This document shows positions 4,149 to 22,932 of a DNA stretch of 64,000 nt, piece after piece. A program made the translations under genes and the position numbers. The DNA is from Nitrobacter vulgaris (GTDB lineage: Bacteria > Pseudomonadota > Alphaproteobacteria > Rhizobiales > Xanthobacteraceae): the NCBI RefSeq assembly GCF_002028545.1, contig NZ_MWPQ01000003.1, positions 62,001-126,000 of the forward strand, read 5' to 3'. Every line of letters starts with the position of its first letter. Positions within the stretch are counted from its first letter, which is position 1. The notes beneath the pieces were generated by a model that worked only from the letters and a program-made list of their open reading frames with translations, was not told where the DNA came from and ran no database searches.

Positions 4149-4275
4149 GCGCGCCTTCGGTGTGAGGATTCTCGCGAATCCCTTTGCAGTGATGAGGACT
4201 GAGTCCTTGTAATCCGGAAAGGCCGGCAACGCACCATCTTGAAATGCCGCGAATCTCTCGCCCTTGCTTTGCGAA

Positions 4276-5628
4276 TCAGGACTTGGTCAATCGTGCCGCA
4301 TAGAAGCCGTCTAGTCCGCCCAGCGTGGGATCATCGTGTGGCAGATGGCAGGGCAGAGTGCGCAGATCCCCCGCGGGCGTCACGATATCAGACAGTCCGG
4401 CCACTTCGGCGTCGCTGACTGGCACGCGCCGGATGCCTGGTTCGGATGCAAGCAGCGTGGCAACGACCTGTTCGCCCTCCTCGGGTTCCAGCGAGCAGGT
4501 GCAATAGACCAGTGTTCCGCCGGGCTTGAGCAGTGTGATCGCCTTTTTCAGCAGCCTTTGTTGCAGGGTGGTCAGCGCCGCGATATCCGATTCTTGCTTG
4601 AGCCAGGCCACGTCCGGATGACGGCGGATGGTGCCGGTTGCGGAGCAGGGCGCATCGACGAGCACGCCGTCGAAGCCGTCGCTGGCGACATCATCGTGCC
4701 AGTCGATGGCATCGGCGACGAGCGACCGTGCGTTCAGCGATAGACGGCCAAGATTCTCGCGTAGCCGCGCTACCCGATTTGGTGATCGGTCGATCGCGGT
4801 TACGTCTGCACCGGCCTGCGCGAGTTGGGCTGTCTTGCCGCCCGGCGCCGCGCAGAGGTCGATGACCCGCCGTCCGGCGACATCGCCGAACAGTCGCGCG
4901 GGCAGCGCGGCGGCGGCGTCCTGTACCCACCATTGCCCCTCGGAGAATCCTGGCAGCATCGTCACCGGACCTTGCAGCGAGGTGCGAACGGTCCCAGTCG
5001 GCAAGGCCTCGCCGTGCAATCGTGTCGCCCAATGTGCCGCGTCGGCTTTGATGGTGAGATCGAGGGCGGGCTCGTGGTTGATCGCGTCGGCAATCGCTTT
5101 CGCGGTGCTTTCACCGTAGTGTCCGCACCAACGCGCCAATAGCCATGGCGGGATATCAAGCGACTCGGAACGGACCTCATCGATCAGGGACTGGCCTTCG
5201 CGCGCGCAGCGGCGGAGCACCGCGTTGACAAGTCCGGCATATTTCGCCGCGCGGCGGTCGGATTGCACCAGCCGTACTGACAGATCGACAGCGGCATGAT
5301 CCGGCACGTCCATCCAGAGAATCTGCGCCGCGCCGATCAAAAGCGCGCTTTGCGCGCGCGGCGCATCGGTCGGAATACCGCGATCGAGCAACCGCGACAG
5401 CAAATGGCCGAGGGTTCCGAGCCGGCGCAGGATCGTCGCCACCAGACGCCGCATCAAGGCACGGTCGCGGTCGGCAAGCGATTTCAGCGCGGGATGCGCG
5501 GTGGGACCCTCGAGCTGTTCATCGAGGGTGCGACGCTTATGAAGGACGCCGTCGAGGATATCCGCTGCGATGCGCCGGGCCGCAAGGCCCGGAGCCTCGG
5601 TCGGCGGTGCGAATCTGGTGGACGGCAT
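4276..5628 (-). CDS. rsmB: 16S rRNA (cytosine-967-C5)-methyltransferase RsmB/Sun family
   Basis: It uses S-adenosylmethionine to methylate C967 of 16S rRNA (family knowledge). The N-terminal 140 residues resemble the NusB-like RNA-binding domain. The C-terminal Rossmann methyltransferase has DLCAAPGGKT (SAM binding), DAPCSATGTIRRHPD (motif IV cysteine) and YCTCSLEPEE (motif VI catalytic cysteine). ATG at 5628 (MPSTRFAPP) gives 450 residues, as expected; upstream in-frame codons to 5751 are not family-like. It is the first gene of the rsmB / heparinase-like / purH strand run and is divergent from the SdhAF4-like gene. Confidence 0.94.
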   Translation of the reverse strand: MPSTRFAPPTEAPGLAARRIAADILDGVLHKRRTLDEQLEGPTAHPALKSLADRDRALMRRLVATILRRLGTLGHLLSRLLDRGIPTDAPRAQSALLIGAAQILWMDVPDHAAVDLSVRLVQSDRRAAKYAGLVNAVLRRCAREGQSLIDEVRSESLDIPPWLLARWCGHYGESTAKAIADAINHEPALDLTIKADAAHWATRLHGEALPTGTVRTSLQGPVTMLPGFSEGQWWVQDAAAALPARLFGDVAGRRVIDLCAAPGGKTAQLAQAGADVTAIDRSPNRVARLRENLGRLSLNARSLVADAIDWHDDVASDGFDGVLVDAPCSATGTIRRHPDVAWLKQESDIAALTTLQQRLLKKAITLLKPGGTLVYCTCSLEPEEGEQVVATLLASEPGIRRVPVSDAEVAGLSDIVTPAGDLRTLPCHLPHDDPTLGGLDGFYAARLTKS

Positions 5629-6760: not shown

Positions 6761-7363
6761 TTAAGAATCCAGGAATTCGCTCGCGGTGAACAGGGAGTCG
6801 AATTCAATATTTCTCCCTTTATAAACGGCCACGGCCCCCTCGCCTCTGTCGACGATCGATAACACCATCGCGACTTCGGCGCCTGCAGCTTGGGCGGCCG
6901 ACACCGCGATCATGGCTGACTCGCCGCTTGTCGTGACGTCTTCCAGGATGACCACCTTCTTGCCGGAGAGGCCGCCGTTGGGAACCCCTTCGATGAGCTT
7001 TTGGGTTCCGTGTTTTTTGACTTCTTTCCGAACGAAGAAGCCGGGAAGCGGTTCATTCTTGATGTGGCTGAGAAGGCTAACGGTCGAAATCAGCGGGACC
7101 GCTCCCATCTCCAATCCACCGATAAAATCTATGCTCTTGCCGAAAAGGCGAGCGAGAATGAGTTCGGACAGCGCATGGGCTCCTTCGGGAAACAACATCG
7201 TCGGCTTCATATCGAAGTAAAACGTGCTGCTTTTCCCGGAAGACAATTTGATGTCGCCGCGACCGAACGATCGGGCCTTGATAATCTCAAAAGCCCTTTG
7301 GCGGACTTTGCTGTCTTCAGCCATGGCTTCGGGCTCAGTCGATGTGGCGAATTGACGGGCCAT
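6761..7363 (-). CDS. pyrE: Orotate phosphoribosyltransferase
   Basis: It converts orotate and PRPP to orotidine 5'-monophosphate in pyrimidine synthesis. The 200-residue protein carries the type I PRTase PRPP-binding signature VVILEDVTTSGESA, the flexible-loop region RKEVKKHGTQK, and the N-terminal SGKSSTFYFDMK. ATG at 7363 is used; an in-frame ATG at 7324 (MAEDSKVRQ) would remove 13 less conserved residues and is plausible. It stands alone on its strand upstream of the bidirectional terminator. Confidence 0.96.
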   Translation of the reverse strand: MARQFATSTEPEAMAEDSKVRQRAFEIIKARSFGRGDIKLSSGKSSTFYFDMKPTMLFPEGAHALSELILARLFGKSIDFIGGLEMGAVPLISTVSLLSHIKNEPLPGFFVRKEVKKHGTQKLIEGVPNGGLSGKKVVILEDVTTSGESAMIAVSAAQAAGAEVAMVLSIVDRGEGAVAVYKGRNIEFDSLFTASEFLDS

Positions 7364-7476
7364 CGTGTCCTATCAGCGTATGGGAAAGAAGCCGGTCTAT
7401 ACGCTCAACCAGTCGCCGTGACAATGATTCCTCAGATAGTAGACCGATGTCGAGCATATTCGCGACTCGTCGCGAT

Positions 7477-7995
7477 CTATTGTTGCGTTACCACCACGGG
7501 CGTGCCGACTGACACGCGCCGGTAGAGATCGTCAATGTCGTTATTGTACATGCGGATGCAGCCGTATGACACGAAGCGGCCGATCGTCCCCGGCCGGTTG
7601 GTGCCGTGAATGGCGTATTGCCCGCCGCCGGAGAGCGTCATCGCTGCGACGCCCATCGGATTCGCAGGCGAACCGCCAGCGATCACGTCCGCGATTTTCG
7701 GATTGTCGCGTTTTACATCGTCCGGGGGCGCCCATGCCGGGTCGCGATACTTGCCCTCGATGCTCGCGGTGCCTGTCCATTGCTTGCCGGCTTTGCCGAC
7801 GCCAACGGGATATCGCAGCGCGCGATTCGAATCGATGATCAGATACAGCCGGCGCTCGTTGGTTTTCACGACGATGGTACCGGGCGCATAGTCGCCCTGA
7901 TAGCCGACCATATCAGGCCGCGCTTCGGCTGATGGGATGCCGGAAAAGCCCATTGTGATCATGGCGGCAAACACCGCCGCAACCCGCCTCAACAT
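7477..7995 (-). CDS. L,D-transpeptidase (YkuD family), secreted
   Basis: This is a periplasmic enzyme that forms 3-3 peptidoglycan cross-links or attaches proteins to peptidoglycan (family role). It has an N-terminal signal peptide (MLRRVAAVFAAMITMGF...SAEA), then a YkuD domain with the catalytic motif HGTNRPGTIGRFVS followed by YGCIRMYNND, giving the conserved His and Cys. ATG at 7995 is chosen over a TTG at 8007 because GGAGCG lies just upstream. At 172 residues it is a minimal single-domain member with no LysM or other binding module. Confidence 0.93.
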   Translation of the reverse strand: MLRRVAAVFAAMITMGFSGIPSAEARPDMVGYQGDYAPGTIVVKTNERRLYLIIDSNRALRYPVGVGKAGKQWTGTASIEGKYRDPAWAPPDDVKRDNPKIADVIAGGSPANPMGVAAMTLSGGGQYAIHGTNRPGTIGRFVSYGCIRMYNNDIDDLYRRVSVGTPVVVTQQ

Positions 7996-8083
7996 TTTTC
8001 GCTCCAATCCGCTTCAAAACGAGTCCGCTTCAGAAAAAGTCCTGCTTCAAATCTGTTTGCAAATGAGCGGAGGGAGAAAGATG

Positions 8084-9715
8084 CTAACCCGCCCGCGCCA
8101 AGGTGCCGTCTATCATCGCGATGGCATTCTGCGCGCCGTAGACCGCGACGAACGAGCCGAAGCGCGGTCCCTTCTCCTGACCCAGCAACACCTGATAGAG
8201 CATATTGAACCAGTCGAGCGAGACGCCGGGCCGTCCGTCCTTGGCGAGCTTTTTGTGGTTGAGAAAAGGTTCGCGGCGGCCGATCTCGTAGACCGTGTTC
8301 TGGATGTCTTCTGCCGAGACGTCTGCGGGCAGTTGTGACAACGCATCGCGCAGGTCTTGCAAGGCGGCTCGTTCGCTCGCGGTCGGCTCGCGGAACGTTT
8401 TGGTCGGTGCCACGAAATCGCGGTAATAGTTGATGGCATAGCCGACCAATGCATCAAGCTTCGGATGGGTGGTCGGCGTGACGCCCGGCCGATAGCGGCC
8501 GATGAAACCCCACAGGGTTTCGGCATTCTCCGCGTTCGAGGACGAGACCAGCGTCAGCAGCAACTGGAACGTGACCGGCATGTCGGCCGCGGGCGGATGG
8601 CCGGCATGAATATGCCACACCGGATTGACCAGCTGCTGCCTCGCATCCTGACGCGGATAACCTTCGAGGAACTGCTGATAGTCGTCGACGTTGCGTGGGA
8701 TCACGTCGAAATGCAGCCGCTTCGCCGCCTTCGGTTCGCGGTACATGAACAGCGACAGCGATTCCGGCGAGGCGTAGCGCAGCCACTCGTCGATGGTCAG
8801 CCCATTGCCCTTCGACTTGGAAATCTTCTGGCCCTTGTCGTCGAGGAACAGTTCGTAGTTGAAGCCTTCCGGAGGCGTGCCCCCGAGCGCCGAACAGATT
8901 TTGCCCGACAGTTTGACCGAATCGATCAGGTCCTTGCCGGCCATCTCGTAATCGACGCCGAGCGCGGTCCAGCGCATCGCCCAGTCCGGCTTCCATTGCA
9001 ATTTGCAATGCCCGCCGGTGACGGGGACTGTGACCCGCTCTCCGGTTTCGGGGTCGTCGTAGGAAACCGTGCCGGCTGCCGCGTCGTGCGCGACAATCGG
9101 CACCTGCAGCACCGCGCCGGTGCGCGGGCAAATGGGCAGAAACGGCGAATAGCTCGCCGCGCGTTCCTCGCGCAAGGATGGCAGCATGATCGCCATCACC
9201 TTGTCGATGTTTTCAAGCACCTTCAGAAGTGTCGCATCGAAGCGGCCCGACGTGTAGTAGGCGGTCGAACTGGCGAACTCGTAGTCGAAACCAAAGGTGT
9301 CGAGGAAAGCGCGCAGCCGGGCGTTGTTGTGCTCGCCGAAGCTCGGATGAGTGCCGAAGGGATCGCGGACTTTCGTCAGCGGCTTGCCGAGATCCAGCGC
9401 CAGCAGCTCTTTGTTGGGCACATTGTCCGGCACTTTGCGCAAGCCGTCCATGTCGTCGGAAAACGCCAGCAGCCGTGTCTTGATTTTGTCTTCGGTCAGC
9501 ACGCGAAAGGCGTGACGCACCATCGTGGTGCGCGCGACCTCGCCGAAGGTGCCGATATGCGGCAGGCCGGAGGGGCCGTAGCCTGTCTCGAACAGCACCT
9601 CATCCTTCGGCGCCTTCTTCAGGCGAGCGACGATCGCCTTGGCCTGTTCGAACGGCCACGCATTAGATTGATCGGCGAGTTCACGAAGATCGCTCGCTGA
9701 TGGGACGTCAGACAT
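8084..9715 (-). CDS. lysK: Lysyl-tRNA synthetase, class I
   Basis: It charges tRNA-Lys in the cytoplasm. This is the archaeal-type class I enzyme, unrelated to the usual bacterial class II LysRS; many alphaproteobacteria use it. Class I signatures are the HIGH-like GLPHIGTF near residue 50 and KISKSKGNG (KMSKS) in the middle of the protein. The C-terminal half is the helical anticodon-binding domain. ATG at 9715 (MSDVPSAS, 543 residues) has GGAGAG upstream and is preferred to the in-frame start at 9805, which would overlap the neighbouring gene end. Confidence 0.95.
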
Positions 9716-19961: not shown

Positions 19962-20930
19962 TCACAAAGGCCGATTGACAGTCGCGGCCGCCGGTAAACT
20001 GGCGCCAGCCTGGACCTGATCCACCGACTTGATGATGTTGTCGCCGAGCAACTGGGCGAAACAGGCATAACCCCAGTCGTTCATGTGAAGGCCGTCCTTG
20101 GTCACGAAGGTGTCGAACGGTAGCGACTGCCGGTCGTGCCAGTCGCGCATGACCTCGAAGCGCGGGAAAATCCCCACATGCCTGTAGTGCGCGACCCGGT
20201 TCAGCAGACCGACCATTCTGCCGGCACTCTCGCCCCTGGCATTGACGGCGGGCGCGTATTGCGGATCGATCAGGACCAGATCGGCGCCGGAGGCCTGAAT
20301 GGTCGCGACGCCGTCTTCGACGGTTTTTGCGGTGCTCGCGGGATCGAGATTGCGTAGCACCGCGTTGGTGCCGACCTGCCAGATCACCATGTCCGGCTTG
20401 GCATCGATCACTTCCGTTCGCAGCCGCTTTATCATCTCGGGCGCGTCCTCGCCGCCCTTGCCGCGATTGAGCACGGTGATGGCGGCGGCCGGATATTTGC
20501 GGTGCAACTGGGCCGCCAGGCGGTTCGGATAATTGAATTCTGGCGACGTCGCGCCGTAACCCTGCGTCGAGGACGAACCGAAGGCGACGATGACAACCGG
20601 TTTGTTGGCTGCAAGCTTGGCCGCCACATGAGGCAGTGATCCCACCGACTGCGAGACACCCTTCGGCGGCAGGCAAGGGACGCGATTGAAGATGTCGCGC
20701 GCGCGGGCAGCAATTGTCGCTACCTTGTCGATCGTCCTTCCGGACAGGCTCTGCGTCGGCGTGCCGGATTGCGCGGTTGCGACCGAAGAAACGGGTGCGG
20801 TGCTGCCTGTCGACAGCGCGGAGGCGTTGGCCGGCGCCGTTTGTGCGAGCGCGGTGGAGGCCGATACTGCCGCCAGTATGACCGCCGCGGCCGGGCCGAG
20901 GGTTCTGCGGAAGCGAAGGATCATCATCAA
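19962..20930 (-). CDS. SGNH/GDSL hydrolase, secreted, catalytic motifs intact
   Basis: This 322-residue exported protein (hydrophobic signal to about residue 30) has an SGNH hydrolase domain after a Ser/Thr/Ala-rich linker. The four blocks are readable: VVIVAFGSSSTQGYGA (nucleophile Ser), NRGKGGEDA (Gly), VIWQVGTNAVLR (Asn) and TKDGLHMNDWGYACFAQLL (Asp-x-x-His). It overlaps the upstream SGNH-like gene by four bases and that gene overlaps the OpgC gene by four, so the three form one coupled operon. A role in esterifying or de-esterifying a periplasmic glycan is inferred from that context. Confidence 0.88.
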   Translation of the reverse strand: MMMILRFRRTLGPAAAVILAAVSASTALAQTAPANASALSTGSTAPVSSVATAQSGTPTQSLSGRTIDKVATIAARARDIFNRVPCLPPKGVSQSVGSLPHVAAKLAANKPVVIVAFGSSSTQGYGATSPEFNYPNRLAAQLHRKYPAAAITVLNRGKGGEDAPEMIKRLRTEVIDAKPDMVIWQVGTNAVLRNLDPASTAKTVEDGVATIQASGADLVLIDPQYAPAVNARGESAGRMVGLLNRVAHYRHVGIFPRFEVMRDWHDRQSLPFDTFVTKDGLHMNDWGYACFAQLLGDNIIKSVDQVQAGASLPAAATVNRPL

Positions 20931-21688
20931 CGCTTGGTCCCGAGTTCGGTGGGGTTGATGCGAGCGGTCTCGATCACGAAGGTCGATAAGGCGCTACCGA
21001 GACAACTGTGAACGCGTTTGGCAAGGCTTACTCCCCGCACTGGGCTGAATAGATCGAATTCACCGCTCTCGTTCCACTTACTCATGATTGTAAAGCGGTC
21101 GAACACTGGTACGTCGCGCTGCTGCGCGACGACGCGCATGTTGTCGATGTAAGATGTCATTGAAACCATGGTTTCCGTGCGCGGGCTGTACTGCATGTTC
21201 ATCAGCACGACATCCGCTCCCGCTTTCTGCAATGAGGTCACGCCTTGGTCGAGGGCCTCGCGAAAGTCGTCGATGTCGACGGACCGGATGGCATCGACAA
21301 TGCCGGTCTGCCACACCACCAGAGTTGATTTTTTCGCCTCCGCGAGCTTGCCGAGGCTGGGCGCGACATCCTCGGCGGTCTTGCGCAGAGCCAGTTCCAC
21401 GGACACGTTCACGAGAATGCCCGGCAATTTCTCGCGAAGTGCAGCCTGCAATTTCGCCGGATAGGCTTCCTCCTCGGCTCCGGATATTGATGAGGAACGG
21501 CTGCCCACCACCAGAATGTTGAGCGGGCCGCCCGCCCTGACCGCCGAGGCGACCCGGGATAGTGTACTATCGCTGGTCAGCAGATAGGCCGGCACGGCGC
21601 AGTTTTTGGTCACATCGTCAGCACACGCGGAGACGCTGGCCGATGAAGCGGCCAGCGCGATCAAGACCGACGCCAAGCCGGTCCTCAT
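20927..21688 (-). CDS. SGNH-like protein, secreted, catalytic motifs lost
   Basis: From ATG 21688 the protein has 253 residues with a signal peptide (MRTGLASVLIALAASSASVSACA). It aligns in layout with the downstream SGNH hydrolase: ILVVGSRSSSISGAEEEAYP in place of the GSSSTQGYG block, LVVWQTGIVDAIRSVD in place of VIWQVGTNAVLRNLD, and GADVVLMNMQYSPRT in place of GADLVLIDPQYAPAV. The Asn of GTN is replaced, and the DGLH block is replaced by SPVRGVSLAKRVHSCLGSAL without the Asp-His pair. It is likely a non-catalytic paralogue, perhaps a partner or binding subunit. Stop and start codons overlap at both ends. Confidence 0.82.
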   Translation of the reverse strand: MRTGLASVLIALAASSASVSACADDVTKNCAVPAYLLTSDSTLSRVASAVRAGGPLNILVVGSRSSSISGAEEEAYPAKLQAALREKLPGILVNVSVELALRKTAEDVAPSLGKLAEAKKSTLVVWQTGIVDAIRSVDIDDFREALDQGVTSLQKAGADVVLMNMQYSPRTETMVSMTSYIDNMRVVAQQRDVPVFDRFTIMSKWNESGEFDLFSPVRGVSLAKRVHSCLGSALSTFVIETARINPTELGTKR

Positions 21689-22932
21689 GCTCCTCCTCCC
21701 GCAAGATCCGAGTCGCCATCGGCAGGTTTGGCGCGGCTTCCGCCCTTGCCCGCAACCCTCTTGTACCACGAAAACACCCATGCGGCGGCGGACATGATCA
21801 GGATTCCGCAAATGCTGATAATGAGGTGAATCGTGGCGCCGCCGGAGCACTCTGCGAGGATGAACTGCCCGGCGAAGGCCAGAAAGACCCCGATACAGAA
21901 GATCTGGAGCGAACTCTGGCCGCACAGGATCAGCGGCTTAAGCCAGGGGGACGCCAATCCCGGCCAGTTCCTGGGCAGGAAGCGGACGGCCAGCGCGGCG
22001 AGCGCCAAAAAGTGGATGATGCGCAGCACGTCGAGATTGGTCTTGTCGATCGGATACATCCACTGTTCGGCGATGTCCGGCATCAAATGATTGAGCTGCG
22101 GCACATGCCAGGTCAGCGTGGTGTAGAAAGCGAACAGCAGATAGGTGACGCAAATCCAAAGTGTTGCCGGCAAAGACAGGATGCGCGAGATGCGCTTGGC
22201 GCCTCCGAGCGCGCACCATGCGCCAAACACGAACAGCAGTTGCCAGGCGAACGGATTGAAGAACCAGACCCCGTTGGGATAGGCGGGGAGTGCCAGTTCG
22301 AACCACCGGGTGAGTGCATAAAAACCGACCGACAGCGCTAGCCCCAGATCAGCCTTGCGCTGCATCACCAGCAACACCGGCGGAAAAAAGAGCATCAGCG
22401 CGACGTAGAGCGGCAGCACGTCCATGTTGACGGGGCGGAATTTCAGAAGCAGCGCCTGCACGATCGTGACGTCGGGCTGCTTGAGAAAATCGAGGATGCC
22501 CATTTCCTCGGTGTAAAGCGGGTTCTCAAAGCTGCTCGCGACGTAGGAAATTTCCGCGAGGAAAATCGTGAATAGAAAGATATGTGCTACGTAGATTTGC
22601 CAGACTCGCCTGAGAATGCGCGCGGCGGCGACGACAAATCCGCGCTCGCGCATAGCGCGTCCGTAAACGAGGGCGGCGGTATAGCCCGAGATGAAGATGA
22701 AAATCTCCGTGGCGTCACTGAAGCCATAGTTGCGGAGAGTGAGCCAGGTCAGGAGGTTCTGCGGCAGATGGTCAATGAAAATCAACCATAGCGCGAGCCC
22801 GCGAAACAGATCGAGCCTCAGCTCGCGCTCGCGCGGCGGGGTCGGAATCAAAACGGCCGGCGCATCGCGCGTGACGCCCGCAGGGGCCGCCCTCGTGCGC
22901 GCTCCGACAATCTGATCGGTAACTGGCGGCAT
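21685..22932 (-). CDS. OpgC-family membrane acyltransferase
   Basis: This 415-residue integral membrane protein has about ten hydrophobic segments. The N-terminal LRLDLFRGLALWLIFIDHLP and the SDATEIFIFISGYTAALVYG segment are OpgC/acyltransferase-3-like signatures. OpgC in E. coli succinylates osmoregulated periplasmic glucans; the substrate here is not known. It heads a three-gene operon with two SGNH-type secreted proteins, a pairing that recalls O-acylation systems in which a membrane acyltransferase works with SGNH domains. A dyad at 22952-22981 lies just upstream of the ATG. Confidence 0.88.
   Translation of the reverse strand: MPPVTDQIVGARTRAAPAGVTRDAPAVLIPTPPRERELRLDLFRGLALWLIFIDHLPQNLLTWLTLRNYGFSDATEIFIFISGYTAALVYGRAMRERGFVVAAARILRRVWQIYVAHIFLFTIFLAEISYVASSFENPLYTEEMGILDFLKQPDVTIVQALLLKFRPVNMDVLPLYVALMLFFPPVLLVMQRKADLGLALSVGFYALTRWFELALPAYPNGVWFFNPFAWQLLFVFGAWCALGGAKRISRILSLPATLWICVTYLLFAFYTTLTWHVPQLNHLMPDIAEQWMYPIDKTNLDVLRIIHFLALAALAVRFLPRNWPGLASPWLKPLILCGQSSLQIFCIGVFLAFAGQFILAECSGGATIHLIISICGILIMSAAAWVFSWYKRVAGKGGSRAKPADGDSDLAGGGA

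Follow-up and report, generated by a model that had tools for sequence, protein, structure and literature searches.

SGNH transferases that act with a membrane acyl carrier are already known from several systems. In the AT3-SGNH fusions OatA, OafA, and OafB, a membrane acyl carrier is joined to a periplasmic SGNH catalyst; in PatA/PatB peptidoglycan O-acetylation, the membrane carrier acts with a separate SGNH transferase; and in the AlgI-AlgJ-AlgF-AlgX and Wss machines of alginate and cellulose acetylation, a membrane acyltransferase is accompanied by two SGNH-like proteins of the periplasm and by the non-catalytic mediator AlgF, as described in PMC10641220. The OpgC/MdoC succinyltransferases (PF10129) are described as stand-alone proteins of the AT3 type in PMC9558356. 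How unfused AT3-type acyltransferases manage without an SGNH domain, and whether they have an undiscovered partner, is posed as an open question in passages of PMC7448272, PMC9833829, and PMC9558356, and one review among these leans toward AT3 proteins acting alone. Here we describe a locus of Nitrobacter vulgaris in which a gene for an OpgC-type acyltransferase is followed by genes for two secreted SGNH-fold proteins, the catalytically degenerate P0002 and the intact P0003. It lies in a stretch of 64,000 nucleotides (contig NZ_MWPQ01000003.1, positions 62,001 to 126,000), hereafter the window. We lean toward the view that OpgC, P0002, and P0003 act together, in trans, as an O-acylation machine of three parts.

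In the machine proposed, OpgC would take the acyl group from cytoplasmic acyl-CoA and present it on the periplasmic side, as its family membership and intact R-X10-H motif suggest. Ser119 of P0003 would accept the acyl group and transfer it to a glycan, like the fused SGNH domain of OafA, OafB, or OatA. P0002, with no catalytic function, would be a subunit docked on OpgC, where it probably positions P0003 or the acceptor glycan. The three genes are consecutive and form a tight operon, as follows.

21685..22932, minus strand: opgC, membrane acyltransferase of PF10129 in the AT3/TmAT clan (profile match, 477 bits)
20927..21688, minus strand: P0002, secreted, catalytically degenerate SGNH-fold protein of the NonGDSL family (PF25182 match and predicted fold)
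19962..20927 (start at ATG 20927 or TTG 20930), minus strand: P0003, secreted SGNH protein with four blocks (PF13472, PF25182, and predicted fold)

The opgC product has 415 amino acids, P0002 has 253 counted from the ATG at 21688, and P0003 has 321 with the ATG start or 322 with the TTG start. A 332-amino-acid open reading frame (ORF) for P0002 starting with GTG at 21925 was rejected as having an over-long start. The original prediction had placed a three-gene operon here with overlaps of four bases at each junction. The operon was confirmed, and so was the 4-bp overlap between opgC and the P0002 gene, but the P0002/P0003 overlap is 4 bp only from the TTG at 20930 and 1 bp from the ATG at 20927. 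Relatives were sought by scanning the pattern V[IV]WQTG[TI]xD, which favors the degenerate type and leaves the nucleophile position outside, over 84,980 species genomes; 343 stretches encode a relative, and the best 80 of these are referred to as named loci. They come from Nitrobacter, Bradyrhizobium, Rhodopseudomonas, and Tardiphaga and from less precisely named metagenome genomes. The trio is found in the same order and on the same strand in 78 of the 80, so the operon is no chance reading and is not absent from relatives; in the other two (L197 and L216), the contig breaks off no more than about 450 bases from the degenerate gene.

The OpgC protein matches PF10129 (OpgC_C) with 477.1 bits (cut-off, 21.4) over profile positions 1 to 358 of 358, and it is the only OpgC match in its genome. 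It also matches PF01757 below the cut-off, and the Pfam profile scan listed no MBOAT match at an E value of ≤1. The arginine and histidine of the motif shared with OpgC/MdoC are present in 91 and 92, respectively, of 92 aligned OpgC proteins.

22768..22803, minus strand: OpgC R44-X10-H55 motif of AT3-type acyltransferases (alignment of 92 OpgC proteins)

This motif is described for AT3-type acyltransferases in PMC9833829. A simple hydropathy scan of OpgC gave six strong peaks, where ten transmembrane helices are the family expectation.

The locus resembles each of the described systems in part. Unlike OatA, OafA, and OafB, the trio consists of separate polypeptides (three reading frames, each with its own stop codon, so that AT3 and SGNH parts are not on one chain), belongs to the OpgC branch of the clan, and includes an extra, dead SGNH protein. 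No natural OpgC-SGNH fusion was noticed in the data, in which no search was aimed at fusions; a 2,440-amino-acid frame spanning OpgC in one genome (G558) was discarded as an artefact, since, judged from ORF positions, it overlaps a 2,012-amino-acid frame on the opposite strand. The membrane protein of the alginate and cellulose machines is an MBOAT protein, whereas OpgC belongs to PF10129. AlgF is a beta-sandwich and both alginate SGNH proteins are held to be active in the account of PMC9487903, whereas the non-catalytic part here is itself an SGNH paralogue. PatA/PatB, according to the same source, has an MBOAT carrier and one SGNH protein, with PatB belonging to the DUF459 family. Finally, OpgC/MdoC share the membrane family and the motif with our OpgC, but the latter is accompanied by two SGNH proteins, and its genome has no OpgG/MdoG match.

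Active-site residues and predicted folds of P0002 and P0003

P0002 and P0003 share 30% identity across 239 aligned columns (E value, 1e-26), and both belong to PF25182, the Non-GDSL lipase-like family "NonGDSL," with scores of 282.7 and 176.7 bits, respectively, against a curated cut-off of 80; the proposal that they are diverged paralogues is supported. The PF25182 model lumps intact and degenerate proteins together, and its one-line description gives neither a role nor a link to OpgC. P0003 also passes the Lipase_GDSL_2 (PF13472) cut-off of 32.9 with 73.8 bits, and P0002 stays under it with 29.4 bits. The N termini of both look by eye like secretion signals. A possible lipobox was also seen by eye in P0002 and in locus L064.

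SGNH proteins are conventionally described by conserved blocks, of which I, II, III, and V are considered here. By alignment, P0003 carries the residues of all four (S119, G156/G159, N188, D278, and H281), and P0002 those of none, with R64, L99/R102, V131, R218, and S221 in the corresponding places. Both parts of the original prediction, four complete blocks in one protein and the loss of the block I, Asn, and Asp-His residues in the other, thus held. The positions concerned, all assigned by alignment, are as follows.

20571..20573, minus strand: P0003 Ser119, block I nucleophile
20364..20366, minus strand: P0003 Asn188, block III
20085..20096, minus strand: P0003 Asp278-x-x-His281, block V
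21497..21499, minus strand: P0002 Arg64, aligned with P0003 Ser119 (block I nucleophile)
21296..21298, minus strand: P0002 Val131, in place of block III Asn188
21026..21037, minus strand: P0002 Arg218 to Ser221, in place of block V Asp278-x-x-His281

The AlphaFold2 model of P0002 has a mean predicted local distance difference test (pLDDT) value of 88.5 and a predicted template modeling (pTM) score of 0.85; the P0003 model, with a low-confidence N-terminal part, has values of 78.9 and 0.73. The best structural match of P0002 is an acetyl-mannan esterase (6hh9_D; Z score, 20.2; root mean square deviation [rmsd], 2.7; 200 residues aligned), and that of P0003 is the same enzyme (6hfz_C; Z score, 22.2; rmsd, 2.6; 215 residues aligned). 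P0002 is thus predicted to have the SGNH fold, yet the alignment puts no catalytic Ser, Asn, Asp, or His there. The proposed loss of its catalytic residues thus holds by alignment, and by prediction P0002 would have retained the fold and lost the chemistry.

The solved folds nearest to P0003 among the matches listed are mostly esterases, namely, acetyl-mannan, acetylxylan, and peptidoglycan O-acetylesterases, and a deacylase would fit them equally well. OpgC could accordingly acylate the glycan alone, as its description as a stand-alone protein would have it, with P0003 as an opposing esterase that removes or edits acyl groups and P0002 as a glycan-binding or regulatory relative. We consider this rather unlikely. 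Fold does not separate esterases from transferases, as AlgJ and AlgX are acetylesterases in vitro according to PMC9487903. AlgX, AlgJ, PatB, OatA, and OafB are not named among the best 50 Foldseek/VIA-align matches of either model, which does not exclude them.

For comparison across the family, proteins were called intact when the residues aligned with S119, N188, D278, and H281 of P0003 were S, N, D, and H. Among 145 aligned family members, 84 are intact, including L247, which has an insertion by block V, and 61 are degenerate. At the named loci, all 80 degenerate proteins have arginine at the nucleophile position, and the S-N-D-H set is complete in 76 of 78 intact proteins; the other two are gapped at the D and H columns, probably because a contig end truncates them. 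Among the 51 proteins of the main degenerate clade, the residue at the nucleophile position is most often Arg (23 proteins), followed by Gly (11), Ala (10), Ser (3), and Thr (2). In family f26 (L127, L129, L130, L252, L254, and L257), the set of catalytic residues kept or lost by the opgC-adjacent copy varies between genomes, apparently through a separate and partly incomplete degeneration.

It is very improbable, in our estimation, that P0002 is an enzyme with a rearranged active site. Such a rearrangement has a precedent in PatB1, where an Arg of block II replaces the block III Asn (PMC9487903), and P0002 does have conserved residues (W126, Q127, G129, Q166, R198, M202, and the C30/C229 pair) in addition to the three clade members with serine at the nucleophile position. 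However, no serine column of the main degenerate clade exceeds 86%, and histidine reaches 90% in one column only, two residues ahead of Cys229. The top conserved residues, moreover, are mostly common to the intact proteins: W126, G129, R198, C30, and C229, each at 1.00 in the clade, are well conserved there too, which points to structural or ligand-binding roles and not to a new triad.

Position behind opgC, descent, and selection

All 61 degenerate proteins are encoded less than 300 bp downstream of opgC on the same strand, versus only 6 of the 84 intact ones. Of the remaining intact proteins, 44 are encoded on the opgC strand more than 300 bp downstream, and for 43 of these a degenerate gene comes first; for 30, the retrieved stretch contains no OpgC, and 4 are in other arrangements. 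The constant place of the dead protein right behind opgC is left unexplained if P0003 is simply an esterase that opposes a self-sufficient OpgC. The six intact genes immediately following opgC hint at an intact SGNH partner as the older state.

The phylogenetic tree was built from 113 of the 145 proteins, with catalytic columns excluded and 32 proteins dropped for at least 75% identity to a kept one. Most degenerate proteins group in a single clade with members from several families (38 rows; support, 100/99), and the others are found elsewhere. The tree requires four changes of state, all four forced by well-supported branches (three in a quicker tree), a count that carries no direction. A topology with a single origin was found in 0% of 200 bootstrap trees, and the approximately unbiased test against one degenerate clade (P = 1.3e-4) rejected a single origin of degeneration. 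Because regaining all four residues is implausible, we read the changes as about four separate losses of catalytic residues. It is possible, though we hold this with somewhat less confidence than the machine proposed for the window, that OpgC in many Alphaproteobacteria is the core of a trans-acting complex in which a dead SGNH paralogue docks and an intact one catalyzes, with the place beside OpgC repeatedly making pseudoenzymes.

Selection was assessed in eight of the nine genomes of the genus, including that of the window and omitting G005, which is without P0003. The median ratio of nonsynonymous to synonymous substitution rates (dN/dS) is lowest in opgC (0.166), intermediate in the degenerate gene (0.195), and highest in the intact gene (0.246), with 28 pairs for each. 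The degenerate gene is thus under purifying selection; it is also old and conserved, and it is linked to opgC. Partial correlations of pairwise distances at 43 loci, calculated in two versions and including shared descent, are 0.75 and 0.78 for OpgC and the degenerate protein and 0.13 and 0.33 for OpgC and the intact one. Within family f1 alone (39 loci), the values are 0.715 versus 0.329, and zero falls just inside the bootstrap interval of their difference (−0.011 to 0.668). OpgC distances therefore appear to track the degenerate protein more closely than the intact one, which is suggestive but not decisive. An opposing esterase leaves this tracking unexplained as well.

The same correlations, which tie OpgC mainly to the degenerate protein, are what would be expected if OpgC and P0002 formed a two-part acyltransferase, with P0002 as a pseudo-SGNH acceptor-binding subunit and P0003 belonging to another pathway and only co-transcribed. 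The 30 intact proteins without a nearby OpgC agree with this, and OpgC and the degenerate copy are the more constant pair: in the family to which the window's genome belongs, OpgC was found in 36 of 37 genomes, and by a hand tally a degenerate NonGDSL protein adjoins one opgC in 36 of these 36. Against a two-part enzyme, which we regard as unlikely, and more so than an opposing esterase, the intact gene follows the degenerate one in 78 of 78 named loci holding both, an intact family member is encoded in 57 of the 60 genomes that have a degenerate copy (hand tally), and the intact SGNH partner seems to be the older one.

Occurrence across genomes

Phylogenetic co-occurrence was found in two wider samples, in which NonGDSL proteins were called at an E value of ≤1e-20, neighbors were tallied by hand, and P values take genomes as independent. 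In the class sample (142 genomes), NonGDSL was found in 15 genomes, OpgC in 24, and both in 14, as neighbors in 13 of the 14; OpgC is thus present in 14 of 15 NonGDSL genomes versus 24 of 142 overall (Fisher P = 3e-12). In the phylum sample (398 genomes, with only the top few candidates per genome scored), NonGDSL was found in 33, all of which fall in the window's own class, OpgC in 84, and both in 29, as neighbors in 24 of the 29; here, OpgC is present in 29 of 33 NonGDSL genomes versus 84 of 398 overall (P = 7e-18).

Several observations weigh against the three-part machine, besides the esterase-like folds nearest to P0003 and the bootstrap interval given above. In the phylum sample, 55 of the 84 OpgC genomes have no NonGDSL match at this threshold, so OpgC in general needs neither SGNH protein. 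The six intact copies directly behind opgC have no degenerate partner there. G005, of the same genus and rated 100% complete, retains opgC and the degenerate gene but has lost the P0003 gene, of which only the last 22 codons are left (L065, G005:C44:138000-146000, around 4220 to 4290); this deletion argues against a strictly obligate trio. No intact family member was found at an E value of ≤1e-20 in G182 or, with 7 of 10 candidates scored, in G353. OpgC itself may be dispensable, given that a 2026 paper (PMC13231049) reports one B. japonicum strain with opgC and one without it. These points, the esterase folds included, keep both the opposing esterase and the two-part acyltransferase alive beside the three-part machine.

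Both partners also occur in other settings. In another family (f89), four genomes (L116, L135, L259, and L260) encode intact NonGDSL proteins but have no OpgC match, so the intact protein can have a different role. Additional opgC paralogues that lack NonGDSL neighbors (L141 to L150 and L160) were found in several genomes of the window's family, some of which have three additional full-length opgC paralogues; their scanned neighbors show no evident common glycan theme. Among 20 flanking ORFs scanned from 12 of the 20 opgC loci without a NonGDSL partner, there was no SGNH family match at an E value of ≤1e-5. Glycosyltransferase family 2 (GT2) proteins are encoded near opgC at three such loci (L153, L156, and L159), and a glycoside hydrolase family 94 (GH94) protein adjoins it at L154.

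Candidate acceptor glycan and implications

The four genes scanned on the flanks of the operon, encoding O-succinylhomoserine sulfhydrylase, ApaG, Hsp33, and dCTP deaminase, are not glycan related. The original prediction had pointed to periplasmic glucans. In the OpgG/OpgH sense these are unlikely here, since OpgG/MdoG (PF04349) has no match in the window's genome, and the textbook role of OpgC in succinylation of osmoregulated periplasmic glucans is therefore not to be assumed. Among 61 genomes (the window's own and relatives, 37 of them in its family), PF04349 matches were found in 19, including 11 of the 37, and OpgG-made glucans were rejected as the acceptor. Two of the nine genomes of the genus (G001 and G006) do have an OpgG/MdoG match, so periplasmic glucan systems vary there. 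Cyclic beta-1,2-glucan was likewise rejected as a general acceptor: the genome encodes a 2,848-amino-acid GH94 protein of the cyclic-glucan-synthase kind (L267:8202-16748, G000:C22), but a GH94 match was found in only 6 of the 61 genomes and 3 of the 37 (in G013, the matching region contains a stop codon), so its distribution differs from that of the operon.

The best candidate for the acceptor in this family, judging from gene content, is a glucan made by an NdvC/NdvB-like system. In the window's genome, a gene for a 565-amino-acid protein like those of glycoside hydrolase family 17 (GH17; L268:4395-6092) is divergent from a gene for an 888-amino-acid GT2 protein with a weak GH17 match (7017-9683; G000:C1), which we take to be the layout of Bradyrhizobium NdvC and NdvB. 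The best solved relatives of the 565-amino-acid protein are beta-1,3-glucanosyltransferases. The B. japonicum glucan is described in PMC4881576 as beta-1,3/1,6 linked, with the 1,6 links depending on ndvC. The 565-amino-acid protein has a match in 35 of the 37 family genomes and in 0 of the 24 others, a pattern confounded by descent; the matches include only the GT2-type partner in G036 and a fragment in G007. As exceptions, G020 and G030 have the operon without the GH17/GT2 pair, and G009 has the pair without OpgC.

No paper naming NonGDSL or PF25182, and none describing this operon, was found in a search of open-licence PubMed Central papers; most subscription papers and all of bioRxiv lie outside that search. 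Three features appear to be new: the separate SGNH partners of a carrier from the OpgC branch, the dead paralogue that is this carrier's constant neighbor in the family, and the recurrent origin of such paralogues. The window contains an unfused AT3-clan member with genetically linked SGNH partners in a conserved operon, and as this operon occurs in genera that include cultured species, the question of SGNH partners can be addressed with three gene deletions. The copy beside opgC, which has lost catalytic residues repeatedly, also offers a natural case of recurrent pseudoenzyme formation in which intact and dead versions can be compared. If the three proteins do form a complex, then the existence of SGNH partners would be settled for one branch of the unfused AT3/TmAT proteins.

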